Virus record (IMG/VR): IMGVR_UViG_3300025010_000216
Location: 1 to 26,249 of that record
Origin: a virus
Length of the DNA stretch: 26,249 nt
Reading direction: 5' to 3' (one strand)
The position numbers and the translations under genes are program-made. The notes under the pieces were generated by a model. That model was not told where the DNA came from. It saw nothing but the letters and a program-made list of their open reading frames with translations, and made no database searches. This document shows positions 2,580-25,039 of this stretch, piece after piece (the stretch's first letter is position 1; each line of letters starts with the position of its first letter).

Positions 2580-3767
2580 ATGAATGGTAAAAAGAAAACA
2601 CATGAAGAATTTTGTGAAGAAGTTTTTTTAATACATAAGAATATAAAAATAATAGGTAAATATAATGGTGCTAGAAATAATATAAAAGTAAAATGTTTAA
2701 ATTGCACAGGTGAATGGGAACCAATTGCTAATAGTTTATTAAGTCATGGATGCCCTTATTGTTGTCCTACACGTAAAAAAGTTTTAATAGGATATAATGA
2801 TATTTGGACAACTAACCAAAAATTGGCAATATTGCTTTTAAATCCAGATGATGGATTTAAATACACAGAACATAGCAATAAAAAAGTTGATTTTAAATGT
2901 CCAGATTGTGGTAATGTTCTAAAGAATAAAATTATAAATGATATTTCTAGAAGAGGTATATCATGTTCTAAATGTGGAGACGGTATCCCATATCCTGAAA
3001 AATTTATATATAATTTGTTAAGACAATTAAATATAACAAATGAGCATATAAAGACACAATTATCAAAAACAACTTTTAAATGGTGTAATGACTATAAGTA
3101 TGATAATTATATATCTGAGATTAATTGTATTATTGAGACTCATGGTATGCAACATTATAAAGAATCAACAGGTAATTGGACATTTTCATTAAAAGATATA
3201 CAAGAAAATGATAAACAAAAAGAACAATTAGCAAAAGAAAATGGTATTGAGAATTACATAGTTTTAGATTGTAGAGAATCAAATTTAGAATGGATTAAAA
3301 ATAGTATTATGAATAGTCTATTACCTAGTTTATTAAATTTTAAAGAAGAAGATATTGATTGGTTGAAGTGTCATGAATATGCTTGTAATAGTTTAGTAAA
3401 AATAGCATGTGATCATTGGAATAATGGAATTAAAAATATCAATAATATTACAAATATAATTAATTTACATCGTGATACTATTAGAAAATATCTTAAACAA
3501 GGAGCAGAATTAGGTTGGTGTGATTACGATCCTAAAAAAGAATTTAAGAAAAATTTACAAGATAATATAATTAGAAGTACAAAAGTAACTTCTAAAATGG
3601 TTATGTGTATAGAAACAGGACAAATTTTTAAATCAATATCAGAAGCAGCAAAAATTGTATTAAATGGTTCTAATCATATCTCTTCATGTTGCAGAGGTAT
3701 AAGAAATACTTGTGGAAAATTAGAAGATGGAACTCCGTTACATTGGAAATATGTAGATAATATTTAA
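2580..3767 (+). CDS. Homing-endonuclease-like protein: zinc ribbons, PD-(D/E)XK-type core, NUMOD1-like C-terminus
   Basis: This 395-residue protein has two N-terminal zinc-ribbon units: C39xxC42 with CPYC near 58-61, and C107xxC110 with C129xxC132. The central segment (about 135-240) includes YDNYISEINCIIETHGMQHY. This is the signature of phage Vsr-like/EDxHD endonucleases, whose core is beta-strand, E-x-x-G-x-Q-H-Y, then a helix with charged residues. The C-terminus (about 335-395: CIETGQIFKSISEAAKIV, ending WKYV) resembles the NUMOD1 DNA-binding domain of homing endonucleases. Such enzymes cut intron-less or gene-less alleles so that repair copies their own gene. The gene sits between portal and protease genes, a usual place for a free-standing homing gene. 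The usual second acidic residue is replaced by H188, so activity is uncertain. Confidence 0.75.
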   Translation: MNGKKKTHEEFCEEVFLIHKNIKIIGKYNGARNNIKVKCLNCTGEWEPIANSLLSHGCPYCCPTRKKVLIGYNDIWTTNQKLAILLLNPDDGFKYTEHSNKKVDFKCPDCGNVLKNKIINDISRRGISCSKCGDGIPYPEKFIYNLLRQLNITNEHIKTQLSKTTFKWCNDYKYDNYISEINCIIETHGMQHYKESTGNWTFSLKDIQENDKQKEQLAKENGIENYIVLDCRESNLEWIKNSIMNSLLPSLLNFKEEDIDWLKCHEYACNSLVKIACDHWNNGIKNINNITNIINLHRDTIRKYLKQGAELGWCDYDPKKEFKKNLQDNIIRSTKVTSKMVMCIETGQIFKSISEAAKIVLNGSNHISSCCRGIRNTCGKLEDGTPLHWKYVDNI

Positions 3768-3787: not shown

Positions 3788-5473
3788 GTGAATAATTTAA
3801 TTATAAAATCAAATAATCAATACATAGAAATATGTGAAATGTCTGAAGAAGATGTTGCAGGTAGAGTAAAAATTCGTATGTCTTGTTTAGAAATAGTTCC
3901 AGATAATTCACATTATAATTCTAACGGAATTTCATGGTTAGAGGAATATATAGATGATAACTTGAAATCTGCAATTGGTATGCCATATGTTGTATCCTGG
4001 TTTGATGAAGAAAATCAAATACCTAGTGATCATGGAACAATGTCATACAATGAAGATGGATATGTTGAATTTGAAGGCGTGTCTGTAGGGTCTGTTCAAA
4101 ATTGCTTTATAGAAGATGTAGAAATTGATGGAATAACAAAAAAACTTCTTATGACAGAAGGGTATTTATATAGTCAGAGGTATCCTTTATTTGTAAAGTG
4201 GCTAAGAGAAGAAATTTTAAACAATAAAGTTTATGGTTCAATTGAAATTAATGGTAAAGGTAAAAATAAAAAAATTGAATATTTAGATGGGTCTACAAAC
4301 AGTGATGGAAGTATGAAAGATGGCAGAATTCCGACAAAATTCGACTTTTCTGGTTTAGCAATTTTATATTTAACTGAACCTTCAGATAAGAATAGTATTG
4401 TTTTTGAGGTTAATTCTAAACAAGATAACCTTGATATAAATACCAAAGTAACTACAGGAAAGGAGGATGATATTTTGGGTGATAAAAATATAAATAATAT
4501 AATTATTGAATTAAATGAATTAAATTACAATGATATTGCGACTTTAGTGGAAAATGTTTTTAATAAAAAAATTAACAATATAGAAAATGAAGAATATCAT
4601 TATTATTATATTCATAAATTCTATCCAACTAATTCTACATTTGTAATGAAATGTTGGAGTAAAGTAGGAGAATATTATAAGAGTTCATATTCCATTGAAA
4701 ATTCAAAGGTTATTATCGGTGACATTATAAAAGTTGAAGAATCATGGGAACCAGTAAATGGTGAGCGATCTATAGAAATTAATAAGTCACTGATTAATAT
4801 ATTAAACAATCAAACAAAGGAGGAAAAAATCAAAATGGATGAAAAAATTGTATTAGAATTTAATCAAAAAATCGAAGATAAAATTAATGAAATTAATTCA
4901 TTAACTAAATCTTTGGAACAAAAGGAATTAGAAGTTAGCACTTTGACTAAATCTTTAGATGAAAATGTAGTAGAAATTAATACTCTTACTGAAAAGGCAA
5001 AAGAATTAGAGGCAAAAGTAATTGAAGTTAATACTTTAACTGAAAAAATTCAAGAATTAGATAGTAAAGTAATTGAACTAAATACTACTATCGTTGAAGT
5101 TAATAAACTACTTGAATCTGAAAAAGCAGAAAAAGAATCTCTTACTATAGAAGTTAATTCTTTTAGGGAAGAGAAAACAAAATTAGAATCAGAAGCAAAA
5201 ATTGCAGAAGTTAATGCTTATTTTGAAACTGAAATTACTAAGAATGGTTTTGAAGAAGCAGAAATAAATTCACTTAAATCTTTTGTAGATGCTGTTGATT
5301 TAGATGGATTAAAGAAAGTAGAAGCAGAATTATGTGCAAAGAAATTTAAAGAAATGATTGCTGAAGGTAGTAATGTAGAAACCAATACTAAGAATGATAT
5401 GTTTATTTCTATTAAAGAAAAAGATGTTAAAAGAATTCCAGGTAGTATCCCTTCTTTCTTTAAAGAAGTTTAA
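3788..5473 (+). CDS. Prohead protease fused to coiled-coil scaffold
   Basis: A frame-opening GTG at 3773 lies inside the ribosome site AAAGGAGGTG, so the in-frame GTG at 3788 is the better start (561 residues). Residues below are numbered from 3773. Residues 1-200 resemble phage prohead proteases: LYSQRYPLFVKWLREEI then VYGSIEI, with S156 a candidate nucleophile and H87 a candidate partner. Such proteases trim the scaffold and often the capsid protein inside the prohead. Residues about 235-345 form a separate domain (YHYYYIHKFYP; VEESWEPV). From about 355 on comes a long coiled coil with imperfect repeats of EVNTLTEKIQELDSKVIE type, ending in a helical tail, as expected of a scaffold. Two in-frame internal starts are annotated separately. 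It lies between an endonuclease-like gene and the capsid genes. Confidence 0.65.
   Translation: MNNLIIKSNNQYIEICEMSEEDVAGRVKIRMSCLEIVPDNSHYNSNGISWLEEYIDDNLKSAIGMPYVVSWFDEENQIPSDHGTMSYNEDGYVEFEGVSVGSVQNCFIEDVEIDGITKKLLMTEGYLYSQRYPLFVKWLREEILNNKVYGSIEINGKGKNKKIEYLDGSTNSDGSMKDGRIPTKFDFSGLAILYLTEPSDKNSIVFEVNSKQDNLDINTKVTTGKEDDILGDKNINNIIIELNELNYNDIATLVENVFNKKINNIENEEYHYYYIHKFYPTNSTFVMKCWSKVGEYYKSSYSIENSKVIIGDIIKVEESWEPVNGERSIEINKSLINILNNQTKEEKIKMDEKIVLEFNQKIEDKINEINSLTKSLEQKELEVSTLTKSLDENVVEINTLTEKAKELEAKVIEVNTLTEKIQELDSKVIELNTTIVEVNKLLESEKAEKESLTIEVNSFREEKTKLESEAKIAEVNAYFETEITKNGFEEAEINSLKSFVDAVDLDGLKKVEAELCAKKFKEMIAEGSNVETNTKNDMFISIKEKDVKRIPGSIPSFFKEV
4475..5473 (+). CDS. Possible nested in-frame product (middle domain plus scaffold)
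   Basis: Inside the protease-scaffold gene, AAAGGAGG (4459-4466) is followed eight bases later by an in-frame TTG at 4475. Initiation there would give 332 residues beginning MGDKNINN, lacking the protease domain but keeping the middle domain and the scaffold. The ribosome site lies exactly at the boundary after the protease domain, which argues that it is not accidental in such A-rich DNA. It is also possible that protease and middle domain were once separate genes that fused by loss of a stop codon. Confidence 0.4.
   Translation: MGDKNINNIIIELNELNYNDIATLVENVFNKKINNIENEEYHYYYIHKFYPTNSTFVMKCWSKVGEYYKSSYSIENSKVIIGDIIKVEESWEPVNGERSIEINKSLINILNNQTKEEKIKMDEKIVLEFNQKIEDKINEINSLTKSLEQKELEVSTLTKSLDENVVEINTLTEKAKELEAKVIEVNTLTEKIQELDSKVIELNTTIVEVNKLLESEKAEKESLTIEVNSFREEKTKLESEAKIAEVNAYFETEITKNGFEEAEINSLKSFVDAVDLDGLKKVEAELCAKKFKEMIAEGSNVETNTKNDMFISIKEKDVKRIPGSIPSFFKEV
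4835..5473 (+). CDS. Nested in-frame scaffold protein
   Basis: AAAGGAGG (about 4816-4823) precedes an in-frame ATG at 4835. The predicted 212-residue product starts MDEKIVLEFNQKIEDKINE and is almost entirely coiled coil, with heptad-like repeats NTLTEK...ELxxKVIE. In lambda (C/Nu3) and many relatives the scaffold is made from an internal start in the protease gene and shares its C-terminus. The sequence here has the same arrangement. The product would line the inside of the prohead and be removed by the protease. The start codon is ATG, unlike the weaker GTG of the full-length protein, so more scaffold than protease could be made. Confidence 0.6.
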   Translation: MDEKIVLEFNQKIEDKINEINSLTKSLEQKELEVSTLTKSLDENVVEINTLTEKAKELEAKVIEVNTLTEKIQELDSKVIELNTTIVEVNKLLESEKAEKESLTIEVNSFREEKTKLESEAKIAEVNAYFETEITKNGFEEAEINSLKSFVDAVDLDGLKKVEAELCAKKFKEMIAEGSNVETNTKNDMFISIKEKDVKRIPGSIPSFFKEV

Positions 5474-7389: not shown

Positions 7390-9015
7390 TTGGGAAAGCA
7401 AATTACATATGAAAGCATTAAAGAATATATTGATAACGAAACGACTGGTAATTGTTGTAAATTAATTACCACACAAAAAGATTTTGAGATTGAGAAATTA
7501 AAGCAAAATAAAAGTAATGTAAGTGTTAAATTAAAAATTCAATGCGGATGTACAGATAAAAATATATTTGAGACAAGTTTTGATAAATTCAAAAGTAGAA
7601 ATAAAAAACAATGTAATATTTGTGGTAAATTAATCACAAGAAATAAAAGATTACTATCATATGAATATGTTAAAAATTATATTGAAATTGAAAGTAATTC
7701 TGGATGTGAATTAATTAGTAATGAATATATTGGAATATTTGATAAACTTGAAACAAAATGTAAGTGTGGGAATCATTTTTATGTTAGTTTTGATGCTTTT
7801 AAGTATAATAATGTAAGAAGATGTTCTGAATGCTATAAAAAATCAATGAGTAAAATTAAAACACTATCTTATGAAGAAGTTAAAAATTTTATTGAAGTTG
7901 AATCAGAAAGTGGTTGTGAATTATTAAGTACAGAATACATAAATGCACATGAAAATTTAAAAGTAAAATGTAAATGTGGAAATGATTTTAATGTTTGTTT
8001 TAATAAATTTAAATCAGATAATCAAAGACAATGTCAAGAATGTGGATATAAAAGTATAGGAAATAAGTTAAGAAAACCATATGAAATAGTAAAATATTTT
8101 ATAGAAGTAAAAAGTGAAAGCAATTGTAAGTTAATAAGTAAAAAATATATAGATGCAAAAAGTAATCTAGATATCGAATGTAAATGTGGAAATAAATTTA
8201 CTACAACATATGATAATTTTTCAAGTGGTAAAAGGCAATGTGAAGTATGTGCTATGAATTTACTTTCAGAAAAATTTAAAATACCATATTGTGATATAAA
8301 AGCAATTATTGAAGGAGATAATAGTAATGGATGCAAGTTAATAACTAGTGAAATTGATTATATTAATACAAATGAAAATATTATTATTGAATGTAGATGT
8401 GGTAATAAATTCACTACGACATATAATAATTTTTTATATCAAAATAAAAAACAATGTGATGATTGTGCAAAACTCAATAAGAAACTAACTTGTTTAGCAA
8501 AATTTGGTTTTGAACATCCTATGAAAAATAAAGAGGTATCTGCAAAAGTAAGAGAAACTTTATTTAAAAATGGCAATGCTCCATGTTCTAAACAGCAAAT
8601 TTATGTTCATCAATTAATTGGTGGAGAAATAAATTATCCATACTATAATGCTTCTTTAGATGTTGCTTTTCCAGAAGAAAAATTATACGTTGAATGTGAT
8701 TTTGGAGGACATTGGTTATCAATTAAATTAGGTGGTTTAACACAAGATGCATTTGATAAGAAACAAAGAAATAGATGGTATTCATTATATCGTTCTAACT
8801 GGAGGAGTATAAATATCATCTCACGCAATGACAATCTCCCATCAGACCAAACAATCCTAGAAATGATATCTTACGCACGTACATATCTACAAAACCATCA
8901 CTACATAAAATTTGATGTAGATAATAATAAAATAATTAATTCTCAAGGTGAATTTGATTATAACTATGGTGAATTAAGAAAAATTAAATTAACCGACTTA
9001 AAAGAAGCAATATAA
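7390..9015 (+). CDS. Homing-endonuclease-like protein with five zinc-ribbon repeats and EDxHD-type nuclease
   Basis: The gene starts at TTG 7390 after CGGAGGTAATGAA; 541 residues. The first about 370 residues are five tandem units of roughly 70 residues, each of the form YE-VK-FIE-ES-SGCELIS...CKCGN-F...C-x-x-C, which should bind zinc and contact DNA. Next comes CLAKFGFEHPMKNKEVSAKV, resembling the DUF723-type repeats of phage homing enzymes. The C-terminal nuclease (about 395-510) has SKQQ...LDVAF (D424), then YVECDFGGHW with E435, D437 and H441, fitting the EDxHD/Vsr-like PD-(D/E)XK family. It lies after the major capsid gene. Codon use shifts towards C-ending codons in the last about 40 codons of the nuclease region (8790-8910), suggesting a mosaic gene. 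Confidence 0.78.
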   Translation: MGKQITYESIKEYIDNETTGNCCKLITTQKDFEIEKLKQNKSNVSVKLKIQCGCTDKNIFETSFDKFKSRNKKQCNICGKLITRNKRLLSYEYVKNYIEIESNSGCELISNEYIGIFDKLETKCKCGNHFYVSFDAFKYNNVRRCSECYKKSMSKIKTLSYEEVKNFIEVESESGCELLSTEYINAHENLKVKCKCGNDFNVCFNKFKSDNQRQCQECGYKSIGNKLRKPYEIVKYFIEVKSESNCKLISKKYIDAKSNLDIECKCGNKFTTTYDNFSSGKRQCEVCAMNLLSEKFKIPYCDIKAIIEGDNSNGCKLITSEIDYINTNENIIIECRCGNKFTTTYNNFLYQNKKQCDDCAKLNKKLTCLAKFGFEHPMKNKEVSAKVRETLFKNGNAPCSKQQIYVHQLIGGEINYPYYNASLDVAFPEEKLYVECDFGGHWLSIKLGGLTQDAFDKKQRNRWYSLYRSNWRSINIISRNDNLPSDQTILEMISYARTYLQNHHYIKFDVDNNKIINSQGEFDYNYGELRKIKLTDLKEAI

Positions 9016-12657: not shown

Positions 12658-12723
12658 CTTATTAAGGTTGCAAACTTAATAAGTGTAAAACAACAAGACT
12701 ATGCCGTTACATAGTCTTTTTTT
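12658..12723 (+). terminator. Hairpin/pseudoknot followed by Rho-independent terminator
   Basis: First hairpin: CTTATTAAG (12658-12666) with CTTAATAAG (12675-12683). Its loop holds GTTG (12667-12670), complementary to CAAC (12691-12694), so an H-type pseudoknot is possible. Terminator: AAGACTATG (12695-12703) with CATAGTCTT (12710-12718), loop CCGTTA, and a T-run to 12723. It ends the neck gene block before the third endonuclease-like gene. Confidence 0.75.
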
Positions 12724-12761: not shown

Positions 12762-14354
12762 ATGGGTAAAAGAAAATATACATACGAAGAAGTAAAACAT
12801 TTTATAGAAGTAGAAAGTAATAGTGATTGTAAACTCATATCAACTGAATATCATTGTAATTCAGACAATTTAATAATTGAATGTAGATGTGAGACAAGAT
12901 TTAATGCATCTTTTAGTAAATTTAAAGATCGTAATAAAAGACAATGTAATAAATGTAGTGGAATGATACCTTGGAATATAGATTCTATAAAACAATTTAT
13001 AGAAATAGATAGTATGAGTGGTTGTAAACTTATTTCTAAGATTTATACGGGGATAAAAGATAAAATAGATATAGAATGTAGGTGTGGAAGACCATTTAGT
13101 GTTTCTTTTGATGTATTTAAAAATAAAAAACAAAGACAATGTGGATATTGTAGTAATAAAATAAATTTAAACACTAACAATGTTAGAGAATATGTAAATG
13201 ATTTAGGTTATGAATTAATTAGTGATTATATAAATTCAAAAGAAAATATTATAATAAAAGATAAATATGGTTTTTATTATTGTGTTCTTTTTCATAATCT
13301 TAAAAAATATAAAACACTCCCAATAGCAAGTACTTCAAATATTTATAGTATTCAAAATATACAATTATGGTGTAAATTAAATATTAAATCATTTGAATTA
13401 ATTAGTAATACATACAAAAAAGGTAAACTTAAATGGAAATGTTTAAAAGATGATTGCGGTGAAATATTTGAAATGAGTTGGGATTGTATTCAAAGTGGAC
13501 AAAATTGTTCATATTGTGCAGGGAAAAAAGTAGGTTTATCAAATTGCCTAGCAACCAAAAATCCTGAACTTACAAAAGAATGGCACTCTACTAAGAATGG
13601 AAAGTTAACCCCATATGATGTTACTGCAAATAGCGGTAAAAAAATTTGGTGGCAATGTAGTAAAAACCCTAAACATGAGTGGGATGATTTTATATCAAAT
13701 AGAAATAAATCAATTAACTGTCCATACTGTTCACATGAAAGACCAAGTGAAGATTATAATTTATTAAAAGATAATCCTGAATTATGTGAAGAATGGGATT
13801 ATAAAAAGAACAAAAAGAAACCAGAAGAATATACCCCAGGTAGTGGAGAATATGTTTATTGGAAATGCAAAGAATGTGGACATGAATGGTATGCACAAAT
13901 TAATAGTAGAAATCGTGGGATTGGTTGTCCTGAATGTAATAAATCTAAAGGTGAAAAAGAATGTAAAAGAGTTTTTATATCTAAAGGTTTTATTGAAATT
14001 AGTCAAGAGGAATATAATATATTATCAGATATAGATAAAAACAAATACATATACTTTATTCCTCAAATGAAATTTGATAATCTAATTGGTCTTGGTGGTG
14101 GTCTTTTATCTTATGATTTTTATATACCAAAATATAATCTTCTCACAGAGTACGATGGTGAATTTCATTATAAACCAATTAAAAAATATAAAAATGAACC
14201 TATGAAATACGCAGAAGAAAGATTAAGAAAACAGCAAATACATGATAAGTTTAAAGATGAATATGCACAAGATAATAAAATAATTTTATTAAGGATTCCC
14301 TATTGGGATTTTGATAACATCGAATCAATCCTTACTAAAGAATTAGGTTTATAA
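12762..14354 (+). CDS. Homing-endonuclease-like protein with zinc ribbons and EDxHD-type nuclease
   Basis: This 530-residue protein starts at ATG after AAAGGAG. Two N-terminal repeats (YEEVKHFIEVESNSDCKLIS...CRC...C-x-x-C) are the same unit as in the gene at 7390. The centre has treble-clef/zinc-ribbon units of DUF4379 type: NPELTKEWHSTKNGKLTPYD with WWQCSKNPKHEW and CPYC, then a second with WKCKECGHEWYAQI and CPEC. The C-terminal nuclease has YDFYIPKYNLLTEYDGEFHY (D452, E463, D465, H469) and a helix with K/R residues ending ILLRIPYWD, the standard EDxHD core. It lies after head closure and before tail genes. The shared N-terminal repeats with the gene at 7390, but different central ribbons, show modular shuffling. 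Confidence 0.8.
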   Translation: MGKRKYTYEEVKHFIEVESNSDCKLISTEYHCNSDNLIIECRCETRFNASFSKFKDRNKRQCNKCSGMIPWNIDSIKQFIEIDSMSGCKLISKIYTGIKDKIDIECRCGRPFSVSFDVFKNKKQRQCGYCSNKINLNTNNVREYVNDLGYELISDYINSKENIIIKDKYGFYYCVLFHNLKKYKTLPIASTSNIYSIQNIQLWCKLNIKSFELISNTYKKGKLKWKCLKDDCGEIFEMSWDCIQSGQNCSYCAGKKVGLSNCLATKNPELTKEWHSTKNGKLTPYDVTANSGKKIWWQCSKNPKHEWDDFISNRNKSINCPYCSHERPSEDYNLLKDNPELCEEWDYKKNKKKPEEYTPGSGEYVYWKCKECGHEWYAQINSRNRGIGCPECNKSKGEKECKRVFISKGFIEISQEEYNILSDIDKNKYIYFIPQMKFDNLIGLGGGLLSYDFYIPKYNLLTEYDGEFHYKPIKKYKNEPMKYAEERLRKQQIHDKFKDEYAQDNKIILLRIPYWDFDNIESILTKELGL

Positions 14355-23401: not shown

Positions 23402-24007
23402 ATGAAAATACAAGAATTAAAAGAAATACTATCTCAAAATAATAAAATAATTATAAATGAATTAATTAAAGTAAAATTATATGTATCTTCTATCGAAAAG
23501 AAGTTATTAGTAGATAATATTATCAATGGTTGCATAGAGTTAGACGAAAATTATATTATGAAAATAGATTATTTTAATAAAAATTTAGTTAAAGATATTT
23601 CAATAATAGCAAATTATACAGATTTAGAGTTTTCGGAGGATGATTCAATTGCAGAATATGATTATTTAATTGAAAATGGTATTTTTGATTATATAATTGG
23701 GGGTATAAATGAAAAAGAAATAGAATTTATTAATGATTTACTTTATGATGAATTAAAACAGAAAATAGATTTAAATAATAGTTTAACTAATGTAATTGTT
23801 AAAACATTAAATAATTTAATTTCAAAAATACCGGACGAAAAGAGTTTAAATAAAATGATGTCTAATATGACGAAAAATTTGAACAAAATAAAACCAGAGA
23901 ATCTTAATATGATGAAGGATCTTTTTAGTCAGAATAAAGGACAAAATTTTATGAGTGAATTGAGTAAAAATATTGTTAAGAATGATGGCATTGAAGTTAC
24001 TGATTAA
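23402..24007 (+). CDS. Conserved clostridial-phage-type protein of unknown function
   Basis: This 201-residue protein starts at ATG after CGGAGG. It is mostly helical. The N-terminal pattern KIQELKEILSQNNKIIINELIKVKLYVSSIEKKLLVDNII resembles proteins I have seen in clostridial phages and prophages, without assigned function. The C-terminal third contains repeated methionines and asparagines (MMSNMTKNLNKIKPENLNMM). A terminator follows 45 bases after the stop. No catalytic or DNA-binding motif is evident. Confidence 0.5.
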   Translation: MKIQELKEILSQNNKIIINELIKVKLYVSSIEKKLLVDNIINGCIELDENYIMKIDYFNKNLVKDISIIANYTDLEFSEDDSIAEYDYLIENGIFDYIIGGINEKEIEFINDLLYDELKQKIDLNNSLTNVIVKTLNNLISKIPDEKSLNKMMSNMTKNLNKIKPENLNMMKDLFSQNKGQNFMSELSKNIVKNDGIEVTD

Positions 24008-24051: not shown

Positions 24052-24086
24052 AGGACATTTCATATTTTGTGGAGTGTCCTTTTTAT
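24052..24086 (+). terminator. Rho-independent terminator
   Basis: AGGACATTTC (24052-24061) pairs with GGAGTGTCCT (24071-24080), including two G-T pairs, and is followed by TTTTTA. It separates the preceding gene from the methyltransferase leader. Confidence 0.75.
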
Positions 24087-24094
24087 ATTTTCTT

Positions 24095-24274
24095 TAAAAA
24101 TAATTTAGAGAGTAGTTTGAGAAACTATTCTAACATCTCCTTTTACTTTTTATTGATTAAGAAGTTGCGAGAGAGAAGTTAGATATTTATTTACTCTAAC
24201 TTTTCTCTAAATTATTTTTATGTGTTAAATAGTATCGCAACTACTATTTGATATTTAGAGATAATCAATAAAAA
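24095..24274 (+). promoter_or_regulatory. Highly structured methyltransferase leader with nested, crossing inverted repeats
   Basis: Six complementary pairs pack into 180 bases: 24095-24111 with 24204-24220 (17 bp); hairpin 24109-24118 with 24122-24131; 24147-24159 with 24262-24274 (13 bp); 24163-24170 AGTTGCGA with 24235-24242 TCGCAACT; hairpin 24170-24183 with 24195-24208; hairpin 24227-24234 with 24242-24249. The last hairpin's loop is the partner of 24163-24170, so a pseudoknot is predicted. The ribosome site of the methyltransferase starts five bases after the last arm. No known riboswitch class was recognised. Confidence 0.5.
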
Positions 24275-24292
24275 TTTAAGGAGGAATTAGAA

Positions 24293-25039
24293 ATGTTAGA
24301 AATTAATAAAATATATAATAATGATTGTATAGGTGAAAATGGAATGTGTTTAATTGATGATAAGAGTGTAGATTGTATAATTTGCGACTTGCCTTATGGT
24401 ACTACAATGGCAAAATGGGATAAAATCATAAATCAAGAATTATTATGGAAAGAATATAGAAGAATAATAAAAGAAAAAGGTGCAATTGTATTAACCTCAA
24501 GTCAACCATTTTCAAGTTTATTAGTATATAAAAACAATGATATATATAAACATTCATGGATTTGGGAGAAAAATAATTCTGCAGACTATGCAAACGCTAA
24601 TTGTAGACCAATGAAAATACATGAAGATATTTTAGTATTTTCTTTTGCTTCAGATGTAGCACCAGGAAAAATAAAAATGAAATATAATCCACAAGATTTA
24701 ATTGTATGTAATAAAATTAATAAAAGAGGAAGAAATAGTGAAACTACAGGACATTTTAATGAAAATGAGTATATACAAAAATATACTAATTATCCTAGAA
24801 CAATTTTAAAATTTGATTTAGATAAAAAGAAAATTCATAGTACTCAAAAACCTGTAGCACTATTTGAATACTTAATAAAAACCTATACAAACGAAGATGA
24901 TTTAATTTTAGATAATTGTATGGGATCGTTTACTACTGCAGTTGCCTGTATAAATACCAAAAGAAATTTTATTGGATTTGAATTAGATGAAAAATATTAT
25001 GAATTAGGGCAGAAAAGATTAGAAGAATTAAATAAATAA
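24293..25039 (+). CDS. DNA methyltransferase (N6-adenine or N4-cytosine type)
   Basis: This 248-residue protein starts at ATG after AAGGAGG. The catalytic motif DLPYG (D32-Y35, the DPPY motif IV) lies near the N-terminus. The S-adenosylmethionine-binding region is at the C-terminus: QKPVALFEYLIKTYT, then DNCMGSFTTAVACINTKRNF (motif I, from residue 207) and IGFELDEKYY. This order is the beta class. DNCMGSFTT is close to the usual DPFMGSGTT, although the second G of FxGxG is F. No endonuclease partner is adjacent, so it is an orphan phage enzyme, likely protecting DNA from host restriction or marking it. Target sequence cannot be read. An elaborate leader precedes it. Confidence 0.85.
   Translation: MLEINKIYNNDCIGENGMCLIDDKSVDCIICDLPYGTTMAKWDKIINQELLWKEYRRIIKEKGAIVLTSSQPFSSLLVYKNNDIYKHSWIWEKNNSADYANANCRPMKIHEDILVFSFASDVAPGKIKMKYNPQDLIVCNKINKRGRNSETTGHFNENEYIQKYTNYPRTILKFDLDKKKIHSTQKPVALFEYLIKTYTNEDDLILDNCMGSFTTAVACINTKRNFIGFELDEKYYELGQKRLEELNK

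Follow-up and report, generated by a model that had tools for sequence, protein, structure and literature searches.

The element at positions 24095-24274 of a phage sequence, lying 5' of a DNA methyltransferase gene, is probably a cis-acting pseudoknotted 5' leader that controls translation by moving an anti-Shine-Dalgarno (anti-SD) strand between two partners; we put the probability of this reading at about 0.6. The whole stretch analysed, called the window here, is the 26,249-base IMG/VR virus record IMGVR_UViG_3300025010_000216 (positions 1 to 26,249). Its GC content is 26%, and its major capsid protein is akin to that of SPbeta-like Bacillus phages (36% identity to SPR and SPbetaL2). A first-pass annotation of the window had proposed a pseudoknotted, fold-switching leader acting on translation. 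Comparative evidence supports this proposal, which passed both the comparison with shuffled sequence and the comparison of pairing in homologous leaders.

Architecture and folding strength of the element

The complementary arm pairs listed in the first-pass annotation are present in the sequence after one-base corrections of their coordinates (Table 1). As had also been described, two of the long pairings cross (P3 crosses P1) and the arm at 24204-24208 (TCTCT) is used by both P1 and P4. The reported complementarity of the P5 loop TCGCAAC is real, with its partner GTTGCGA placed at 24164-24170 and not at 24163-24169. The annotation had overlooked the anti-SD:SD pairing, the alternative helix UUCUAAC:GUUAGA and the recurrence of the element before other genes.

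Table 1. Features of the element and its surroundings in the window.
Feature	Position	Strand	Remarks
201-codon gene, no assigned function	23402-24007		upstream neighbour of the element
Terminator-like hairpin followed by T run	24052-24080	+	5' of the element
P1 5' arm (TAAAAATAATTTAGAGA)	24095-24111	+	17 bp, perfect; covaries with 24204-24220; inner AGAGA invariant
P2 hairpin (GTAGTTT GAG AAACTAT)	24112-24128	+	arms 24112-24118 / 24122-24128; nearly invariant, hence without covariation support
UUCUAAC	24128-24134	+	invariant; partner 24178-24183 (P6) in the early fold
Anti-SD UCUCCUU	24136-24142	+	pairs with SD 24278-24284; tracks SD sequence across copies
P3 5' arm	24147-24159	+	13 bp with 24262-24274; all cells paired (100%); 3 pairs with changes on both sides
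PK (pseudoknot) 5' strand GTTGCGA	24164-24170	+	complementary to P5 loop
P4 5' arm (AGAGAGAAGTTAGA)	24170-24183	+	14 bp with 24195-24208, including one G-U; SD-like purine strand holding the anti-SD in the early fold
P4 3' arm	24195-24208	+	final five bases TCTCT common to P1
P1 3' arm	24204-24220	+	pairs with 24095-24111
P5 hairpin	24227-24249	+	arms 24227-24234 / 24242-24249; loop TCGCAAC 24235-24241 is the PK 3' strand; two-sided change in 6 of 8 pairs
P3 3' arm	24262-24274	+	3 nt from its end to the start of the SD
Shine-Dalgarno (SD) AAGGAGG	24278-24284	+	sequestered by anti-SD; computed base pairing probability 0.8-1.0
N6/N4 DNA methyltransferase, 248 aa	24293-25039	+	gene behind the element; PF01555 E 1.2e-28; phrog_67

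The minimum free energy of region 24080-24300 is -62.9 kcal/mol, whereas 200 dinucleotide shuffles of the same region gave a mean of -36.2 (sd 3.9); the z-score is -6.8 and no shuffle was as low (0/200). The shuffle check suggested with the earlier claim is thus passed: shuffled sequence does not match the folding of the element. When 192 gene leaders of related contigs were ranked from the lowest z-score upwards, copies of the element took the first six places and seven of the first eight. In this ranking, the segment scored for the seventh copy begins inside its ORF, and the L075 copy, whose gene is a fragment, was not sampled.

The element recurs in related uncultivated phages

Eleven distinct copies of the element, including that of the window, were found in related uncultivated phages with an SPbeta-like capsid. 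The first ones came from a search of the window DNA against the records behind 36 related loci, which yielded contigs of 227 kb and 230 kb. Further copies were collected with one pattern drawn from the conserved hairpin and another drawn from the P1 3' arm. The ten copies outside the window are L065, L066, L069, L071, L072, L073, L074, L075, L112 and L123. With covariance model R1, from whose construction L112 and L123 were left out, all copies score 139-191 bits, and L123, which comes from another metagenome, has the lowest score. The sample consists of 11 related sequences, mostly from one main group of metagenomes.

At the sensitivity used (blastn and pattern search), no copy was detected in cultured phages, plasmids or GTDB genomes. 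Blastn of the window and of the L072 copy against known phages and plasmids gave short chance matches only; the sole GTDB pattern match (L077) was judged to be chance, as were the pattern matches L064 and L146-L149, which had no convincing model score. A multi-copy regulon within one phage was not seen, the contigs of 227, 230 and 118 kb each carrying a single copy. Leaders near kin of the controlled genes (L151, L152, L154, L155, L157, L158, L161 and L162), considered as divergent versions, had no model match; in L151, L152 and L154, the gene lies closely behind apparent upstream coding sequence. No family of Rfam 15 (riboswitches, ribozymes and group I introns included) matched the window at the gathering threshold, and at E up to 10 only chance-level matches were obtained for the window element and L072. 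Judged from its sequences, the element is an RNA family absent from Rfam, a putative cis-regulatory translational leader of a known kind with an unusual, portable architecture.

The same leader precedes different genes

All copies share one orientation and a similar distance to the start, and each runs up to a ribosome site and start codon. The genes behind it encode DUF559-type nucleases (L065, L072), HNH proteins (L069, L112), BRO-N proteins (L066, L074), Rha-domain proteins (L123, and L073 by similarity to L123) and a DEAD-type helicase (L071, a sub-threshold match), of which a broken copy is found in L075. A weak, sub-threshold match to RusA lies at the C-terminal end of the L066 and L123 proteins. 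The first-pass annotation had placed the element before the methyltransferase. It is not specific to this gene, since it is absent from L001, whose methyltransferase is a 92% identical protein, and the ten other copies precede other genes. A leader common to the window and this nearest methyltransferase was likewise rejected, as the similarity of L001 DNA to the window begins only at about the start codon.

A few short matches aside, the upstream sequences are similar only within the sets window/L073/L074, L065/L069, L066/L071 and L072/L075/L112, and downstream similarity groups the copies differently. Because the two sets differ and the L001 similarity starts at the start codon, the leader is a module that has been recombined relative to its neighbours. 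Comparison of the copies shows this recurrence with shuffled neighbours; by these similarities, the leader and the genes recombine independently and the element is at junctions of unrelated modules. On the upstream side, the similarity of L042 (1072-3484) and L043 (1245-3660) to the 201-codon gene stops near the 3' end of that gene and resumes about 1.9 kb later; the gap holds a zinc-finger nuclease-like ORF and looks like an insertion.

Compensatory changes point to selection on the RNA

Covariation was evaluated on an alignment of the 11 sequences whose model included P2-P5 only. Of the alignment cells, 95.9% pair as the six helices (P1-P5 and PK) require, and two-sided compensatory change is found in 18 of 56 pairs (47 cells), the covarying helices being P1, P3, PK and P5. 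Pairing is therefore conserved in homologous leaders, a point on which the earlier claim could have failed: all six helices are kept across the 11 copies. Of 500 shuffles, none attained the covariation score, and a shift of the partners by one to three columns makes the signal collapse. P1 and PK are the less biased tests because they are absent from the alignment model. Both covary on a plain MAFFT alignment, where no shuffle out of 500 equalled either the score or the number of cells with two-sided change, and 5 of 500 matched the number of two-sided pairs. Since related sequences can make shuffle statistics look too good, more weight goes to the sliding control and to the variety of pair types than to the 0/500 values. 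The strand pairs of PK, for instance, are GTTGCGA/TCGCAAC, CTGCGAA/TTCGCAG or CGGCGAA/TTCGCCG according to the copy. P2 and P6 hardly vary and so have no covariation support. Otherwise the helices are supported by comparison of the copies.

All helices together contain 57 G-T cells versus 2 A-C cells, which indicates that the + strand RNA is under selection. This ratio bears on the suggestion, also made in the first-pass annotation, that the element is an origin or a DNA recombination site. A DNA site of this type (replication origin, recombination or packaging) would act as hairpins in single-stranded DNA, and both the long inverted repeats and the position at junctions of unrelated upstream and downstream modules are in line with it. 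Pairing in such a site would be indifferent to strand, whereas here G-U is tolerated and A-C is not; in addition, the SD is part of the fold, which changes along with it, and orientation and distance to the start codon are kept as described above. We therefore regard a DNA site as very improbable.

The anti-SD changes along with the SD

The segment that lies between UUCUAAC and P3 extends P3 in every copy by pairing with the SD region, and mean pairing of the SD region over 10 nt is 0.50-0.99 across copies. Two kinds of SD, AAGGAG and AAGAAAGAAG, are found besides individual variants. The anti-SD/SD pairs are CACAUC/GAUGUG in L066, CACUUCUUUC/GAAAGAAGUG in L123 and CUCCUUUA/UAAAGGAG in L073. 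The L073 duplex reaches -15.1 kcal/mol, but only between -2.9 and -7.3 if its anti-SD is matched to SDs of the other kind. For the window and for L065, the duplex on its own does not surpass those formed by shuffled anti-SDs, of which 37% and 22%, respectively, are as good; the argument is therefore one from the family. Comparison of the copies shows this predicted sequestration, and it supports the view that the decisive feature of the element is an anti-SD that sequesters the SD and changes along with it.

Masking of a ribosome site by RNA is known from T4-like homing endonuclease genes (I-TevI, segB, mobE), where an internal late promoter yields open transcripts (PMC2988022). The element resembles these leaders in that its structure sequesters the SD and several of the genes behind it are nucleases. 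It could be a static mask of the T4 type, long read-through transcripts with the whole element being closed and an internal promoter giving shorter, open late transcripts. With this precedent (PMC2988022), such a mask would fit the closed SD of every full-length copy and the terminator just upstream. That the element starts just past a terminator had been noticed in the first-pass annotation and was confirmed: the terminator-like stem ends 14 nt 5' of P1, and a hairpin of this type lies at most 90 nt upstream in 10 of 11 copies, versus 4.6% of random windows. However, none of the 11 copies revealed a conserved promoter-like block inside the element, sigma-70 promoter matches in the terminator-P1 spacer or the element are only at chance level (the phage's own promoter type may differ), and P5, a possible promoter location, is not conserved in sequence. 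A static mask would also leave unexplained the covariation of PK and of P1, which lies outside the closed fold. We regard a static mask as unlikely. Each T4-like leader is a hairpin of its own gene and is opened through an internal late promoter, whereas the copies of the element are homologous, pseudoknotted, endowed with a competing fold and placed before varied gene types, and no internal promoter was found in them.

The AT-rich spacer between terminator and P1 frequently contains AAATTTA or a near variant (L066, L069, L071, L072, L073, L075 and L112). This motif could be a candidate phage promoter, though descent explains its sharing among some copies. A YonO-like phage RNA polymerase, considered as an explanation for transcription across the terminator, was set aside: neither PF00623 nor one active-site codon pattern gave a match, a weak check in view of how diverged YonO is.

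Two alternative folds are predicted

P1 and full P4 are mutually exclusive because both use UCUCU. The ability to switch between folds that had been attributed to the element agrees with this competition and with the computed folds, which change with transcript length. For 10 of the 11 copies, the calculations on growing transcripts favour P1, the anti-SD being bound elsewhere. When the transcript ends just after the P1 3' arm, P1 has a probability of at least 0.96 in ten copies and of about 0.6-0.7 in L065, which favours P1 only weakly and reverts earlier as the transcript lengthens. UUCUAAC is paired to GUUAGA (P6) in these P1-ended transcripts of all copies except L066, where P1 is present without P6; in those P1-stage folds that were inspected, the P4 purine strand binds the anti-SD. 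The window, L072, L073 and L123 were followed through all transcript lengths; in these four, the early fold lasts until the SD is transcribed, and P2, P4 and anti-SD:SD then take over.

Full-length transcripts belong to a closed fold family, with the SD shut, in all 11 copies. When P1 is imposed, the mean pairing of the SD falls in each of them: six copies go down to 0.06-0.21, four (window, L065, L073 and L074) to 0.43-0.52, and L112 only to 0.78. In the alternative fold, P1 is lengthened by the P2 5' arm. By an energy model that does not include pseudoknots, the closed fold is more stable by 1.7 to 19 kcal/mol. The segments used in both folds (AGAGA, GUAGU, UUCUAAC, GUUAG and UCUCU) are nearly invariant, as expected of strands that must satisfy two partners, and most single-fold segments vary, with compensation.

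The preferred reading, a leader that moves its anti-SD between two partners, can be described as follows, the order of folding and the relative stability of the folds being computed. During transcription, P1 would form, UUCUAAC would pair with GUUAGA, and the purine-rich 5' strand of P4, an internal SD mimic, would hold the anti-SD, so that the SD would emerge free (ON). Once the SD is transcribed, a more stable fold would become possible, made of P2, full P4, P3 extended by anti-SD:SD, and the P5-loop pseudoknot. This fold would close the SD (OFF), the anti-SD being handed from the internal mimic to the real SD. Translation would come as a burst and then be shut off, except where some factor keeps the RNA in one fold; the balance could be tipped by a ligand, by a protein or by the pseudoknot itself. 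We infer the assignment of the folds to ON and OFF, their timing and the biological role. As OFF is the more stable state in the calculations, ON may be short-lived or never used.

The hok and aapA3 toxin mRNAs also form a metastable fold during transcription and then a stable fold that sequesters the SD; in their case, the transient fold blocks translation at the early stage, and an antisense RNA takes part (PMC6733600). The element resembles them in the computed succession of a conserved transient fold (10/11 copies) and a stable SD-closed fold (11/11). It differs in that its computed transient fold leaves the SD open. The genes behind it look like DNA enzymes or regulators.

Translational riboswitches carry an anti-SD expression platform in which SD, anti-SD and a competing strand lie under a structured upstream core. 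The element has the same components beneath a structured core, and its alternative folds hide or free the SD, in computation only. A riboswitch-like regulator, in which a metabolite or a phage or host protein binds the crossing P1/P3/PK core and a signal rather than time sets the fold, is accordingly a possible, if rather doubtful, alternative. The complex conserved pseudoknotted core and the near-invariant UUCUAAC exceed the needs of simple SD masking, and the alternative folds with anti-SD and SD mimic resemble riboswitch expression platforms. The invariance is, however, explicable by strands that serve two helices, the controlled genes have no common metabolic pathway, and neither the window element nor L072 matched an Rfam riboswitch.

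Other structured leaders and inserts in the same phages

A second, unrelated leader type was observed in L012 (about 1000-1137, +) and L028 (about 760-884, +). Its P1 (GAAGAGG/CCTCTTC; GAAGATAGG/CCTATCTTC in L028) encloses a hairpin and CTCTACG (CTCTGCAC in L028), which can pair across P1 with CGTAGAG (GTGCAGAG) 5' of the ribosome site. The result is an H-type pseudoknot with changes on both sides and z-scores of -6.3 and -3.5. A third type is found in L001 (about 4215-4324, +) and L157 (about 1880-2001, +), with P1 ATAAACAGGA/TCCTGTTTAT (AAACAGTC/GACTGTTT in L157); its inner hairpin loop TCCTTA can pair with TAAGGA 3' of P1, before AAAGGAGATG.

Three zinc-ribbon/treble-clef repeat genes lie among the virion genes of the window (2580-3767, 7390-9015 and 12762-14354). 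Two contain DUF4379 and the third a sub-threshold CSL zinc finger; from their sequences, they look like free-standing homing endonuclease genes. A AAGGTTGCAAACTT hairpin followed by a terminator-like stem occurs 5' of zinc-finger nuclease-like genes in the window (about 12660-12700), L112 (2154-2167) and L009 (12638-12651). An inverted repeat (ATTAAT...ATTAATNTTGAYAAG) recurs in L011 (11189-11225), L014 (11187-11223) and L038 (3260-3296), + strand; between it and the gene that comes next lies a terminator-like hairpin.

Implications for phage gene control

The leader may, more tentatively, represent a new class of phage RNA switch: one pseudoknotted leader, passed between phages as a module for the control of expression, would detect how far infection has advanced (from a ligand, a protein or the transcription rate) and time nuclease, methyltransferase and antirepressor-like products by pairing its anti-SD now with the real SD, now with an internal mimic of it. 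The element is a structured RNA family with a traceable two-state design, which makes the switch testable by a handful of point mutations. Its distribution suggests that phages may reuse one leader as a portable controller of nuclease, methyltransferase and antirepressor-like genes. Such a controller would help to explain how accessory genes can be swapped and yet stay tightly controlled. As the same phages seem to have two or more further types of pseudoknotted leader, the strategy may be wider.
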